The notes under the pieces are model-generated. The model did not search any database. It worked only from the letters and a program-made list of their open reading frames with translations, and was not told the DNA's origin. This document shows positions 32-34,700 of a DNA stretch of 34,700 bases, in pieces. The position numbers and the translations under genes were made by a program. The DNA is from a virus, in the IMG/VR virus record IMGVR_UViG_3300047297_000030, positions 1 through 34,700 of that record; one strand, given 5' to 3'. Each line of letters opens with the position of its first letter. Positions within the stretch are counted from its first letter, which is position 1.

Positions 32-50
32 TTAGGGTAAGTCCCTAGAA

Positions 51-77
51 TAAACATCTTGTTTAGTTTGCTATACT
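51..77 (+). promoter_or_regulatory. Extended -10 promoter with Cro-type operator
   Basis: An inverted repeat TAAACA-TCT-TGTTTA (51-65) is followed at a fixed distance by an extended -10 TGCTATACT (69-77). No good -35 is visible. The same arrangement, operator arm then TTTGC then TATACT, occurs at the cro promoter (30491-30518). A short hairpin TAGGG/CCCTA (33-47) and the word GTGATTA (28-34) lie just upstream. It should drive the small-gene block starting at 123 and perhaps the structural operon beyond. The Cro-like protein encoded at 30525 is the obvious candidate ligand, by inference. Confidence 0.65.
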
Positions 78-122
78 CACGTCAGCCCAAGCAATTCGCA
101 AGGGTACTTTTAAGGATTAAGA
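78..122 (+). promoter_or_regulatory. Conserved transcript leader with hairpin, rightward copy
   Basis: Immediately after the -10, this 5' UTR aligns almost base for base with the leader of the leftward operon (30388-30433 on minus). It folds as GCCC(85-88)/GGGT(102-105), a symmetric AA/AA internal loop, then GC(91-92)/GC(98-99) closing an AATTC loop. In the other copy the outer inner-stem pair is A-U instead of G-C, a compensatory change. The leader ends in a Shine-Dalgarno AAGGA (112-116) before the ATG at 123. Its role could be antitermination, stability or translation control. Confidence 0.6.
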
Positions 123-380
123 ATGAAATACGAATTTGACACAACTGTTGGTGAAGGCTCTGCAATCGTTACTGTTGTCATGGAGTACGAGCAAGACGAG
201 GAAGGCATCTATAACGAGAGCATTGACGAAATCTGGTTTCAGGGTCGCAATGTCTTGGGTATCTTGACTTACAAGCAATACCAAGAATTAGAGATCGAGG
301 GTTCTATGCGTTTGACCAAACACCTCATAGATGAGGCAGATCACGCTAAAACTGTTGACTACGACTTGCGTGGTGTCTGA
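123..380 (+). CDS. Hypothetical acidic phage protein (85 aa)
   Basis: This is the first gene after the operator-controlled promoter. It has an AAGGA ribosome site six bases before the ATG. The protein is acidic, with a beta-rich N-terminal half (repeated V/I/T strands) and a C-terminal helix. I do not recognise a domain. Its stop overlaps the next ATG by one base (TGATG), implying translational coupling. Position suggests an accessory phage function, but nothing in the sequence defines it. Confidence 0.75.
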   Translation: MKYEFDTTVGEGSAIVTVVMEYEQDEEGIYNESIDEIWFQGRNVLGILTYKQYQELEIEGSMRLTKHLIDEADHAKTVDYDLRGV

Positions 381-2193: not shown

Positions 2194-2242
2194 GGCACTC
2201 AGTTGCCATGAGTTTAGAGGGACTATGTGCCCTCTCTTTTTT
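2194..2242 (+). terminator. Rho-independent terminator
   Basis: A small hairpin GGCA/TGCC (2194-2207) is followed by AGAGGG (2216-2221), an eight-base loop, CCCTCT (2230-2235) and then C plus six T. This is a textbook intrinsic terminator closing the small-gene block. Structural genes downstream need either read-through or their own promoter. Confidence 0.85.
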
Positions 2243-2261
2243 ATCTCAGTATTTATATAAT
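2239..2261 (+). promoter_or_regulatory. Candidate promoter for the packaging region
   Basis: A perfect TATAAT (2256-2261) lies 18 bases before the ATG at 2280, right after the terminator, in AT-rich DNA. No convincing -35 is visible at 16-18 bases, so this could be a weak or activator-dependent promoter, or chance in an AT-rich stretch. Confidence 0.35.
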
Positions 2262-2279
2262 CGCCAATAAAGGTAAATT

Positions 2280-2924
2280 ATGCAAATAAATGTAACACTC
2301 AATATCAAAGACATAACCAATAATCTTAATAGAATACAAAAGGAACAAATACCTTTTGCTGCCAGTCAGACTATTAACCAATTGGCTTTTGAAATATCAA
2401 AGAAAACATTACCTAATAAAACAAAAGAAGTCTTTGAAGGTGGCGCAACTGCATTTACTCAAAAGGCTTTTAACTATGCTAAGTCGAATAAGCGTACACT
2501 AATAGCAAGAGTATTCATTGACGAAAAGCGAGAGAAGTACATGAGATTCATGGTGGCCGGCGGAACAAGAACACCAACTAAGAGAGCCATCCTTGTCGCA
2601 ACAGACAATAGCAAGGTTAACAAGTTTGGCAACATTCCTCGCGGCACAATCCAGCAAATGATCGAGGACAAATCTAAATACTTTAAAGGTGTCCCAAAAG
2701 GGCGCCAAGGACAACAATACGAAGGTATCTGGGAACGCTATGGAAGAACAGCTAAAGCCGGTGGCCAACGAATCCGCATGGTAGGACGATACACAGACGA
2801 AGCTCAGTACAAACCCTTGTTCATGTTCGCAAAGTACGCAAGTGACATCGTATTCGCTAGAGAAGGAGGCTTCAATAACCGCTTTAGAGCAAACTTACAG
2901 AGAGCACTCGCCAATGCTAGGTAG
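2280..2924 (+). CDS. Minor tail protein Z-like / tail completion candidate (214 aa)
   Basis: The gene starts after an AAAGG ribosome site. The layout is an N-terminal beta stretch (INVTLNIKDI), a helix with AASQTINQLAFEISKK, and a basic middle and C-terminus. It recalls lambda gpZ-type tail completion proteins, which begin similarly with a helix containing A-x-N-x-L/V. Similarity is weak and judged only by eye. It lies upstream of the terminase genes, not in the tail block, and has its own possible promoter. A different DNA-end or tail-joining role remains open. Confidence 0.5.
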   Translation: MQINVTLNIKDITNNLNRIQKEQIPFAASQTINQLAFEISKKTLPNKTKEVFEGGATAFTQKAFNYAKSNKRTLIARVFIDEKREKYMRFMVAGGTRTPTKRAILVATDNSKVNKFGNIPRGTIQQMIEDKSKYFKGVPKGRQGQQYEGIWERYGRTAKAGGQRIRMVGRYTDEAQYKPLFMFAKYASDIVFAREGGFNNRFRANLQRALANAR

Positions 2925-25461: not shown

Positions 25462-26022
25462 CTACTCATCATCTTGAATATGCGCCCATCGTTTGCCCTT
25501 TTCAATAAGATAGATTGTGGATGGGCTTACATTCGCAATGATAGACAAAGAGTTGGCTGGAACACCAACGCGCAAAGCCTTACGAATGTGAATCACTTGT
25601 CTTTGCGTAAGTTTATGCATAGGTTGATTTTCCCCGCGCAAATTAACAAGGCCAGTTTCCCATTCGTGTTTAGAATTTTGCGACAATGTAACCCATTCAA
25701 GGTTTTCGGGCCTGTTGTCTGTTTTAATTCCGTTAATGTGATTAACTGTTAAATGGGGTTTGTATCCATGCACAAAACACATAGCGATCAAACGATGGAC
25801 AAAAACTTTGGGTCTTTTACCATTTTGCAATGTAGATACCACCAAATACCCGTTGCGGTTCAAAAATGGGGAAAGTTTGACAGATGGCGAATGGCTTGTA
25901 AAAGACTGCTCAAAACCATTTCTAATGCGTTTAATCGTGCGTGTTCTAGCTTCGTTCCAAATGCTTCCGTCTTCGTAAACAAGCCAAGAAGCGTTTTTTT
26001 CAATTACTTTTATTGGGTTCAT
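25462..26022 (-). CDS. HNH homing endonuclease, NUMOD4-type, antisense in lysis region (186 aa)
   Basis: Contains an N-terminal NUMOD4-like segment (ASWLVYEDGSIWNEARTRTIK), YLVVSTLQNGKRPKVFVHRLIAMCF, an HNH core (LTVNHINGIKTDNRPENLEWVT) and a C-terminal helix-turn-helix (LTQRQVIHIRKALRVGVPAN). This is the plan of free-standing phage homing endonucleases. It lies on the strand opposite to its neighbours, between the 3TM holin and the endolysin. Start chosen at the ATG whose codon is 26020-26022, because a strong -10 (26032-26037) lies just upstream. An ATG at 26046 would add eight residues. Probably a mobile gene unrelated to lysis. Confidence 0.88.
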   Translation of the reverse strand: MNPIKVIEKNASWLVYEDGSIWNEARTRTIKRIRNGFEQSFTSHSPSVKLSPFLNRNGYLVVSTLQNGKRPKVFVHRLIAMCFVHGYKPHLTVNHINGIKTDNRPENLEWVTLSQNSKHEWETGLVNLRGENQPMHKLTQRQVIHIRKALRVGVPANSLSIIANVSPSTIYLIEKGKRWAHIQDDE

Positions 26023-26031
26023 AGTGTTCAT

Positions 26032-26040
26032 ATTATAGCA
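26032..26040 (-). promoter_or_regulatory. Extended -10 promoter of the homing endonuclease
   Basis: On the minus strand this reads TGCTATAAT, a perfect extended -10, with TTTTCA as a possible -35 17 bases upstream. The expected transcript start would be only about five bases before the ATG at 26022, so the mRNA would be nearly leaderless. The element sits in the gap before the endolysin gene. Confidence 0.6.
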
Positions 26041-26053
26041 GGACATTCGTAAG

Positions 26054-28676: not shown

Positions 28677-28928
28677 TTAAAATGGCAAATCTGAATCGTC
28701 GAATTCTTCTTGCTTAACCTTTTTCTTAGGTTGCAAAGAAGCGTCAGCGTTCTTGTTCTTGACAGACAAAGACATGAACTTATTCCCATCTTTGCTGATC
28801 TTTATCCAAGCAGATAGCCAGTAGTCTGTACCATCTACATTGATGCTGCCTTTATAGTCGGGAAACTTAGCATCGTCCTTGCGGTCGTTCTTGAAAAGAC
28901 TACCCCGATTGTTGTTGTCGTATTCCAT
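28677..28928 (-). CDS. Small ssDNA-binding-like protein with acidic tip (83 aa)
   Basis: A compact beta-rich body (DYKGSINVDGTDYWLSAWIK, then NKFMSLSVKNKN) is followed by a linker and the C-terminal end FDDSDLPF, which mimics the acidic tip of bacterial SSB (DDDIPF) used to recruit partners. The gene begins in a TAATG overlap with the annealing protein gene. I infer an SSB-like partner for recombination. The body also resembles small DUF736-type proteins. Confidence 0.6.
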   Translation of the reverse strand: MEYDNNNRGSLFKNDRKDDAKFPDYKGSINVDGTDYWLSAWIKISKDGNKFMSLSVKNKNADASLQPKKKVKQEEFDDSDLPF

Positions 28929-29578
28929 TATTCTTTCGCTTTCTTAATTGCTGTTCTTACTTTGCTTGGCAGTAGTCCCCACAAAGCCACTTTTTGATCG
29001 GCCTCTAGGTTTTCTGCTTCCATTTTCTCAAGTCCTTGCTTTCCATCAAGGGCTATGAGTTCCATTGCTAACTCCCTGAGATATTCCATCTCCTCTGGTG
29101 GTAGCGTATCTGCTATGCCTTGTGTAGGCGTAATGATGACCTTTTCTACTGGTGCATCCTCATTGGGCAAGTCTTGACCAGCATAGATGTATAACCCAAG
29201 TCCATGCAAGCCAAGTGCTTTGGTCATGCAGCGCATAATGGCTGTGTTGACCGCAAAAGCATCGCACTCAACCCGATACTCTTTGCCGTACTTAGAAACT
29301 GCTGTATAGCCCTTCAAAGGGATTGCTTTGTTGCTTGAATCCATAACTGGAAGCTGGCAGGTCATTGGCTTGTCAAACATGGTAACTGTCACCCAGACCA
29401 TTGCTGTGCCATTGATCTCCATGTAGCACTTGTCACCAAACATTTCTACCTTGTAAGTAGCTTTAGGGTCTGCTTTAAGAGCTTCTGCCCATGCCCAAGC
29501 CCATGACAGGTAGGTTAGGTTTTGTTTCTTTTCTGTGTGTTCATTAACATTTAACTTGAGTAGTGCTTCTATTGACAT
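28928..29578 (-). CDS. Single-strand annealing protein, Sak/DUF1071-type (216 aa)
   Basis: The N-terminal LKLNVNEHTEKKQNLTYLSWAWAWAE, the QLPVMDSSNKAIPLKGYT segment and VNTAIMRCMTKALGLHGLGLYIYAGQDL are diagnostic of DUF1071/Sak-type single-strand annealing proteins in the Rad52-like superfamily. They pair complementary single strands during phage recombination and replication. A charged C-terminal helix region follows. Encoded with an SSB-like protein, as in many phage recombination cassettes. Confidence 0.9.
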   Translation of the reverse strand: MSIEALLKLNVNEHTEKKQNLTYLSWAWAWAEALKADPKATYKVEMFGDKCYMEINGTAMVWVTVTMFDKPMTCQLPVMDSSNKAIPLKGYTAVSKYGKEYRVECDAFAVNTAIMRCMTKALGLHGLGLYIYAGQDLPNEDAPVEKVIITPTQGIADTLPPEEMEYLRELAMELIALDGKQGLEKMEAENLEADQKVALWGLLPSKVRTAIKKAKE

Positions 29579-30232: not shown

Positions 30233-30248
30233 GGGGGACTAAGCCCCC
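30233..30248 (-). terminator. GC-rich hairpin between first two leftward genes
   Basis: GGGGG (30233-30237) and CCCCC (30244-30248) enclose a six-base loop. No U run follows on the minus strand; on the plus strand TGTTGATTTATT follows. It may attenuate or process the leftward transcript, and AAGGAG for the next gene lies right after it. Confidence 0.4.
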
Positions 30249-30258
30249 TGTTGATTTA

Positions 30259-30387
30259 TTACTCGACTCTGCCATCAGCGTAAACAACAACATTCTTGCC
30301 ACTAGGCAAATGCACGTTGCAAGAAACTGCACCAGCTTCAGCTTTGAGGTAACGAATTACAGAGGCGATAACTTGAGAATCTGTCAT
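30259..30387 (-). CDS. First leftward gene, small protein (42 aa)
   Basis: It starts with MTDSQVIASVIRYLKAEAGA and ends VSCNVHLPSGKNVVVYADGR-VE. It lies directly under the leftward promoter with the conserved hairpin leader and an AAGGAG ribosome site. The fold looks like a helix followed by two strands. No family is recognised. Its position as first gene of an early operon would suit an immediate-early host-directed or regulatory function, but this is inference. Confidence 0.6.
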   Translation of the reverse strand: MTDSQVIASVIRYLKAEAGAVSCNVHLPSGKNVVVYADGRVE

Positions 30388-30433
30388 TTCTGACTCCTTA
30401 AAAAGACCCTTACGAATTGTTTGGGCTGAGGTG
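30388..30433 (-). promoter_or_regulatory. Conserved transcript leader with hairpin, leftward copy
   Basis: The minus-strand copy of the leader at 78-122. The hairpin spans 30426 down to 30406: GCCC, AA, AC, AATTC loop, GT, AA, GGGT. Compared with the other copy, one inner pair changes from G-C to A-U on both sides at once, while the loop, internal AA/AA and outer stem are unchanged. It ends with TTTTTAAGGAG before the ATG at 30387. Confidence 0.6.
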
Positions 30434-30463
30434 ATTGTAAACTAATCTAAACAGACTTATCAA
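30434..30463 (-). promoter_or_regulatory. Leftward early promoter
   Basis: On minus: TTGATA (30463-30458), an 18-base spacer and TACAAT (30439-30434). Both hexamers differ from consensus at one base. The spacer contains TGTTTAGAT, like one arm of the operators, so the Cro-like protein may also touch it, but no full inverted repeat is present. Confidence 0.7.
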
Positions 30464-30490
30464 GATATTTATCTAAGTGATTACCCTAAC

Positions 30491-30518
30491 ATCAACACTT
30501 TGTTGATTTTGCTATACT
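30491..30518 (+). promoter_or_regulatory. cro promoter with operator
   Basis: A perfect seven-base inverted repeat ATCAACA-CTT-TGTTGAT (30491-30507) is followed after TTTGC by TATACT (30513-30518), with TGC forming an extended -10. Spacing and sequence match the operator/promoter at 51-77. The operator covers the place where a -35 would sit, so binding should block RNA polymerase. The expected transcript start is near 30525, the A of the cro ATG. Confidence 0.7.
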
Positions 30519-30524
30519 GTCGAG

Positions 30525-30677
30525 ATGGATATACATCAAGCTATCACACTTGCTGGCTCACAGAGTGAGCTTGCTAGAATCTTTGGCATTACAAGGGCGG
30601 CTGTCAACCATTGGAAGACAATCCCTCCTCTACGCCTATACCAACTAAAAGAACTCAAGCCAGAATGGTTTAAATGA
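30525..30677 (+). CDS. Cro-like HTH regulator (50 aa)
   Basis: MDIHQAITLAGSQSELARIF, then GITRAAVNHWKTIPPLRLYQ, is a minimal helix-turn-helix of the Cro/YdaS type (turn AGSQSELARIFG, recognition helix TRAAVNHW). It lies directly behind an operator-bearing promoter, so autorepression is likely. Its expected mRNA starts at or next to the ATG, i.e. leaderless. No divergent CI-type repressor exists, and the opposite side holds only the leftward operon. The stop overlaps the next ATG. Confidence 0.82.
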   Translation: MDIHQAITLAGSQSELARIFGITRAAVNHWKTIPPLRLYQLKELKPEWFK

Positions 30678-31144: not shown

Positions 31145-31927
31145 ATGCACTACTACCAACATCATATTGGTGATTTCATTAAGGACACTTCATTTTTAAC
31201 TAATGAAGAAATTGGGATTTATCTCAAGTTAATTTGGCTTTACTACGACTCTGAAAAGCCATTGCCAAACAATTTATTTGAACTTGGAATGAAGACAGGG
31301 ACTAGGGACAACCAAGTTGTTCTTGAGGGTCTTTTAGAGATGTTCTTTATTCTTGATGAGCAGAATAAATGTTGGAATCACAGTAGATGTGACAAAGAAC
31401 TTGAACACTACAAACAGCAATTAACAACTGCTTCTAAGGCTGGAAAAGCATCAGCACTTAAACGAGCGATGAACAAGAATCCAACGAGCGTTGAACAAGC
31501 GTTAAACGAACGTTCAACAGAGGTTCAACCAACCAATAACCATAAACCAATAACCAATAACCAAGAGAAGAAGGCACTCGGCAAACGCCTCGCTTCTGAT
31601 TTTAGTTTTCCAAAAGAATGGGAAGACTTCTGTCAACAGACAAGACCAGAACTTAGCCCTGTAAAAACCTTTGACCAGTTCAAGGACTACTGGATAGCCC
31701 AAGCAGGTCAAAAAGGTGTGAAGCTGGATTGGTTTGCTACTTGGCGTAATTGGGTGAGAAACACAAATGCACCGAAAGCTAATCCTGCCGACAACATCAG
31801 GCTCACAGTTCCTGCGTCAAATGAGCCTGAACCTGCTTTACTAAAGATTGAAGCTGACAGAAAAAAAGCAGTTCCTATTCCGTTAGAAGTGTTAGCAAAA
31901 ATGGCAGAGTTGAGGAGAAAAGCATGA
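31145..31927 (+). CDS. Replication protein with DUF1376 and DnaT-like domains (260 aa)
   Basis: The N-terminal ~90 residues (MHYYQHHIGDFIKDTSFLTNEEIGIYLKLIWLYY) are DUF1376, a winged-helix domain typical of phage replication initiators. A low-complexity Asn/Pro/Thr linker follows (~105-140). The C-terminal FPKEWEDFCQQTRPELSP and FDQFKDYWIAQAGQKGVKLDWFATWRNWVRN resemble the DnaT/primosomal ssDNA-binding domain. It probably opens the origin and loads host helicase, since no phage helicase is present. The linker-coding DNA holds the candidate origin. Confidence 0.82.
   Translation: MHYYQHHIGDFIKDTSFLTNEEIGIYLKLIWLYYDSEKPLPNNLFELGMKTGTRDNQVVLEGLLEMFFILDEQNKCWNHSRCDKELEHYKQQLTTASKAGKASALKRAMNKNPTSVEQALNERSTEVQPTNNHKPITNNQEKKALGKRLASDFSFPKEWEDFCQQTRPELSPVKTFDQFKDYWIAQAGQKGVKLDWFATWRNWVRNTNAPKANPADNIRLTVPASNEPEPALLKIEADRKKAVPIPLEVLAKMAELRRKA
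31461..31562 (+). other. Candidate replication origin (iterons within replication gene)
   Basis: AACGAGCGATGAACAAG (31461-31477) repeats as AACGAGCGTTGAACAAG (31483-31499), 22 bases apart. An inverted relative GTTCAAC appears at 31512 and again at 31523. An AT-rich stretch with three copies of ACCAATAACC (31532-31562) follows. Iterons plus an AT-rich segment inside an initiator gene recall lambda O/ori. Low-complexity coding for the linker could produce the same pattern. Confidence 0.45.
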
Positions 31928-34604: not shown

Positions 34605-34700
34605 TTAGGGTAAGTCCCTAGAATAAACATCTTGTTTAGTTTGCTATACTCACGTCAGCCCAAGCAATTCGCAAGGGTACTTTTAAGGATTAAGAATGAA
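34574..34700. repeat. Terminal direct repeat, right copy (circular-assembly overlap)
   Basis: Identical to 1-127. It contains the end of ninB, the operator/promoter, the hairpin leader and the first five bases of the gene at 123. See the left copy for interpretation. Confidence 0.9.

Follow-up and report, generated by a model that had tools for sequence, protein, structure and literature searches.

The leader of phage T7 gene 10, a phage expression leader, combines a 5′ hairpin with a U-rich stretch and a strong Shine-Dalgarno (SD) sequence. A 5′ hairpin added to bla mRNA stabilizes the transcript and impedes RppH (PMC3997798), and T4 gene 32 mRNA is stabilized by a 5′ hairpin (PMC8948821). 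The put RNA elements of phage HK022 are approximately 70 nt long and comprise two stem-loops with a triplex (PMC9378689). Here, we describe a pair of hairpin leaders on two opposed operons in a window of 34,700 nt (IMG/VR virus record IMGVR_UViG_3300047297_000030, positions 1 to 34,700), a terminally redundant or circular record with a 127-bp direct terminal repeat from an uncultured, freshwater tailed phage.

Terminase and structural genes run rightward from about 2.3 kb in this genome, the leftward operon encodes a Sak annealing protein, and a P22-Cro/YdaS-like regulator (30525-30677), a DUF1376 protein and NinB are also encoded. On the circular genome, the two leader promoters diverge across the cro/replication region (Table 1). 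The motif GCCCAARCAATTCGYAAGGGT lies at 85-105 (+) and 30406-30426 (-), in each case about 7 nt past the -10. The window contains three exact matches, compared to 0.00 expected in dinucleotide shuffles with up to 3 mismatches; since the match at 34658-34678 is part of the terminal repeat, there are two real copies, not three. The sequence-only reading had proposed twin leaders on opposed operons whose inner stems differ by a compensatory change, and both points hold: the leaders are present at these positions, with G91-C99 in one and A30420-U30412 in the other. One compensatory pair between two copies is weak evidence of structure, and the decisive structural evidence is the family rather than the two window copies.

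Several other features of the genome were apparent. Operator-like repeats (TAGGG..CCCTA, GTTTAG..CTATAC) are common to the regions upstream of both leaders (33-60 (+) and 30460-30495 (-)), and possibly a single repressor would bind both. The cro-like gene apparently yields a leaderless mRNA (30492-30527 (+) in the window), as its -10 ends 5 to 6 nt before the ATG in 104/105 loci, in contrast to the two hairpin leaders. An HNH-like open reading frame (ORF) of 194 aa, recognized by eye at 25462-26052 (-), is embedded in the late region, whose genes run rightward, across from two ORFs of the plus strand; it is a possible homing endonuclease insertion. No host assignment was reached; the closest TerL in a bacterial record (74% identical) is located at the end of a 582-kb Akkermansiaceae metagenome-assembled genome (MAG) contig, which could be either a host clue or the result of misbinning.

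Table 1. Features of the two leaders and their operons in the 34,700-nt window.
Feature	Position	Strand	Details
Right leader promoter	33..77	+	Operator-like TAGGG...CCCTA repeat; -10 TATACT at 72-77; read from sequence; motifs recur with varying sequence in relatives
Predicted transcription start	84	+	A of CA initiator, 7 nt after -10; placed by -10 spacing
Right hairpin GCCC-AA-GC-AATTC-GC-AA-GGGT	85..105	+	Pairs 85-105, 86-104, 87-103, 88-102, 91-99, 92-98
Right spacer ACTTTT (U-rich) and SD AAGGA	106..116	+	AAGGA at 112-116
Right operon first ORF	123..380	+	ATG at 123; 85 aa, MKYEFDTT...; function unassigned; relatives in 143 loci
Intrinsic terminator closing right leader operon	2216..2242	+	Candidate late promoter TATAAT at about 2257 next
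Left -10 TACAAT	30434..30439	-	Predicted +1 at about 30427
Left hairpin GCCC-AA-AC-AATTC-GT-AA-GGGT	30406..30426	-	Inner-stem A-U replaces G-C
Left spacer CTTTTT and SD AAGGA	30395..30405	-	AAGGA at 30399-30395
Left operon first ORF	30259..30387	-	ATG at 30387; 42 aa, MTDSQVIASVIRYLKAEAG...; read from sequence
Right-hairpin repeat in terminal redundancy	34658..34678	+	Same copy as 85-105
Second hairpin GGGGGCTTAGTCCCCC	30233..30248	-	Unrelated to leader hairpin; between genes 1 and 2 of left operon, directly before AAGGA

A motif scan of IMG/VR placed the leader in at least 118 contigs, further scans recovered two more classes, one with a long stem and one other (84 and 7 stretches, respectively), and a covariance model gave 276 matches over the 193 sources searched. 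About 275 copies from some 190 loci reduce to roughly 65 distinct leaders. Both copies in the window match a model built from the long-stem class only (R1), at 36.3 and 33.4 bits (E values of 8.4e-06 and 4.3e-05), and a pattern search that specified a -10 and an SD joined by a short leader, but no hairpin, yielded the hairpin leaders, coding-like matches and otherwise nothing notable. The wealth of covarying relatives returned by covariance-model searching refutes the proposition that no further covarying homologues exist, and a large population of uncultured freshwater phages commonly carries the leader. Wherever both copies were present (84 loci), they formed one divergent pair flanking the cro/replication region, 2.3 to 4.3 kb apart (84/84). 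Among relatives, the Sak-type or other annealing protein (28928-29578 (-) in the window) and the replication gene (31145-31927 (+)) are exchanged while the leaders stay, and the late modules differ. Where the side could be assigned by the DUF1376 marker, right copies in relatives were of the GC-AATTC-GC type in 50/56 cases, a share biased upward because many loci were fetched by that type; none of 51 left copies equaled this dominant right type.

Across the family, the hairpin occurs in classes that include GC-AATTC-GC, AC-AATTC-GT, GA-AATTC-TC and GCCCAC-A-AC-AAAAC-GT-AA-GTGGGT, with further classes GCCCGC..GTGGGT, ACCCGC..GCGGGC and GCCCT-A-GC-AAATT-GC-AAA-AGGGT. In the roughly 65 distinct leaders, compensatory changes (G-C/A-U/G-U, C-G/A-U and A-U/G-C/G-U) preserve the fold, which also persists as stem length varies. 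Among 36 distinct leaders, pairing of the inner helix is complete (100%), and each of its two pairs has changed on both sides; none of 500 shuffles matched its percent paired or its covariation score, and sliding the partner by 1 to 3 columns reduced pairing to 0-43%. A covariance-model alignment (A4) showed two-sided changes at four pairs, and again 0/500 shuffles reached its score. In alignment A3 and in the long-stem class taken by itself, most pairs are invariant, and for this reason the covariation score did not exceed that of shuffles. Predicted hairpin energy is modest (-4.9 to -6.9 kcal/mol). The leader hairpin is thus a genuine RNA-structure family kept by compensatory change. These data bear on two explanations that do not invoke RNA. 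One is that the leader marks a conserved recombination boundary, a short shared sequence kept as homology for exchange of gene cassettes; different first, replication and annealing genes do adjoin it, but homology would preserve sequence, whereas stem bases change compensatingly, stem length varies and left and right copies have not been homogenized, making this reading very improbable. The other, improbable but somewhat less so, is a signal at the DNA level, either an operator dyad or an initially transcribed sequence that tunes promoter escape. The conserved block starts at the predicted +1 of promoters with operator-like repeats, and a DNA dyad would also show some compensation; however, AA opposite AA in the internal loop breaks dyad symmetry, both the inner stem and the base contain wobble G-U pairs, and conservation continues to the SD at fixed spacing.

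The anatomy of the leader is strikingly constant. The hairpin spans 21 to 24 nt and begins at the predicted +1/+2, the -10 precedes it by 7 to 8 nt in 259/274 copies, and the distance from +1 to the SD is about 31 to 36 nt. All 274 copies place AAGGR either 6 nt (227) or 4 nt (47) beyond the hairpin, and all but two have the ATG 5 to 9 nt after AAGGR. If +1 is the A before GCCC, a single 5′ base is unpaired in 147 of 154 folded contexts and two in the other 7; the hairpin is predicted to lie within a few nucleotides of the 5′ end, with an overhang of 0 to 2 nt when the transcription start is placed by its spacing from the -10. The SD was mostly unpaired in 122/154 of the folded contexts. Mean entropy within the hairpin was 0.15 bits for right-type copies (n = 18, obtained through the other copy of their locus) and 0.29 bits for long-stem left copies (n = 19), compared to 0.67-1.5 bits upstream and 0.94-1.6 bits across the opening 45 nt of the ORF. 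The earlier suggestion that conservation spans hairpin, internal loop and ribosome site is supported across the family, in which the internal loop is A-rich.

We propose, at roughly even odds (a probability of about 0.5), that the element is a 5′-terminal stem-loop and ribosome-site leader for mRNA protection and translation. Each divergent promoter would produce an mRNA whose first nucleotide is followed by the 21- to 24-nt hairpin; a U-rich spacer of 4 or 6 nt then leads to AAGGA and the start codon. With 0 to 2 unpaired 5′ bases, the hairpin could shield the triphosphate end from 5′-end-dependent decay of the RppH/RNase E type, while the constant spacer may hold the ribosome site open, and the putative outcome would be long-lived, well-translated messages from both operons.

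Our preference for this protective role goes no further than roughly even odds, since invariant bases not explained by the fold point to a possible binder. Any stem should suffice for a pure stabilizer, yet CCC/GGG and base pair 1 are constrained. CCC/GGG is invariant among the approximately 65 distinct leaders aligned by the covariance model (one GCCT outlier appeared in the -10/SD pattern search), and base pair 1 is G-U (267) or its wobble-shaped equivalent A-C (7), never G-C or A-U. CCC/GGG, the wobble pair at the base and A-RC-ANNNY-GY-RA are all conserved although the fold alone would not call for them, which suggests that a factor may recognize the hairpin as well. A tentative alternative is accordingly a protein-binding RNA operator, in which a phage or host protein reads a terminal module in both leaders (the A-rich internal loop, 2 bp and a loop beginning with A) and coordinates translation or decay of both operons. 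The hairpin's entropy, far below that of its flanks, would suit such an operator, as would the switch of base pair 1 between G-U and A-C only and the invariant bases shared by left and right copies that otherwise differ within a genome (0/51). Against it, loop bases 2 to 4 are free to vary, the hairpin does not include the SD, the first genes are unrelated and no candidate RNA-binding protein was identified. The stability element fits the anatomy better than the operator does. It is doubtful, in turn, that the leader represents a new class of phage RNA regulon element, in which one trans-acting factor of phage or host origin would read the 5′-terminal hairpin on both operons and set their translation or decay together.

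Genes downstream of the leaders are diverse: first-gene N-termini numbered 29 on the left and 19 on the right, with some families following both leaders. Since the first genes differ, the leader is not the operator of one gene, and it is portable between first genes. At internal gene junctions in 50 loci, the GGGGGCTTAGTCCCCC hairpin and its variants stand directly ahead of AAGGA, so that the layout of a hairpin before a ribosome-binding site itself recurs. With the operon end located through the HNH gene, a terminator of varying stem follows that gene in the right operon of 71/74 distinct relatives. Directly past the terminator (2216-2290 (+) in the window) lies a conserved -10-like TGTGNGANAATG, a candidate late promoter, and then the late genes.

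The distribution of terminators also bears on one of the options raised by the sequence-only reading, a put-like RNA which would bind RNA polymerase so that it ignores terminators downstream of both promoters. Like the leaders described here, putL and putR of HK022 form a pair of RNA elements situated close to where two opposed early operons begin, putL closely following PL (PMC9378689). The likeness ends there: the leader forms one hairpin of 21 to 24 nt, falling short of the two stem-loops and triplex in about 70 nt that characterize put (PMC9378689). Furthermore, there is almost nothing for an antiterminator to overcome, as in 40/42 loci the left operon showed no intrinsic terminator over 2.5 kb, and right operons mostly carry only the terminator that closes them, with the candidate late promoter immediately after. 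Terminator distribution, size and shape therefore make a put-like role the least probable of the explanations considered. A lambda nut site, with boxA upstream of the boxB hairpin bound by N protein, was also rejected: with +2 as the predicted first base of the leader hairpin, no transcribed sequence would precede it. No N- or Q-like protein occurred among the proteins searched, a subset of the ORFs.

The leader apparently constitutes an undescribed class of phage RNA, as the sequence-only reading had suspected. Rfam 15 gave no match in the window, and a permissive threshold returned only eukaryotic miRNA and snoRNA families far below gathering scores. Cultured phages gave chance matches only, and the exact motif was absent from 84,980 prokaryotic (GTDB species) genomes. 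Nor was the leader present in phages related through TerL, namely Roseobacter phage CRP-811 and two Manatee Spring phages (12 kb each), and a covariance-model search of whole genomes reached through TerL loci, run without a positive control, found no match. Searches of these other collections were exact or near-exact, so distant versions may exist. In the literature, we found no paper on phage leaders of this type or on a phage in which several operons share a structured 5′ leader in this way. The leader is small enough for reporter-plasmid work; it could find use as a compact, portable element for expression, or lead to an RNA-binding factor.

Among described systems, the leaders of Escherichia coli ompA and papA and of T4 gene 32 are similar in that a hairpin sits at the 5′ end or close to it, leaving few bases unpaired, and a free ribosome site follows. 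Those stem-loops belong to single genes, whereas the phage family heads two opposed operons in many phages and, unlike them, has invariant bases in stem, internal loop and spacer. The T7 gene 10 leader has the same succession of 5′ hairpin, U-rich stretch and strong SD; compared by description only, the leader described here bears no recognized sequence relation to it and differs in its host-type promoters, smaller hairpin and A-rich internal loop. The intergenic CUUCGG hairpins of T4-like and other phages (PMC8948821) are likewise small and located in phage intergenic regions but differ in loop and sequence, and the internal GGGGGCTTAGTCCCCC hairpins are their nearer parallel. In its proposed role, the leader would act as known 5′ stem-loop leaders do, but it forms a distinct family, one that comes in pairs and is highly conserved.
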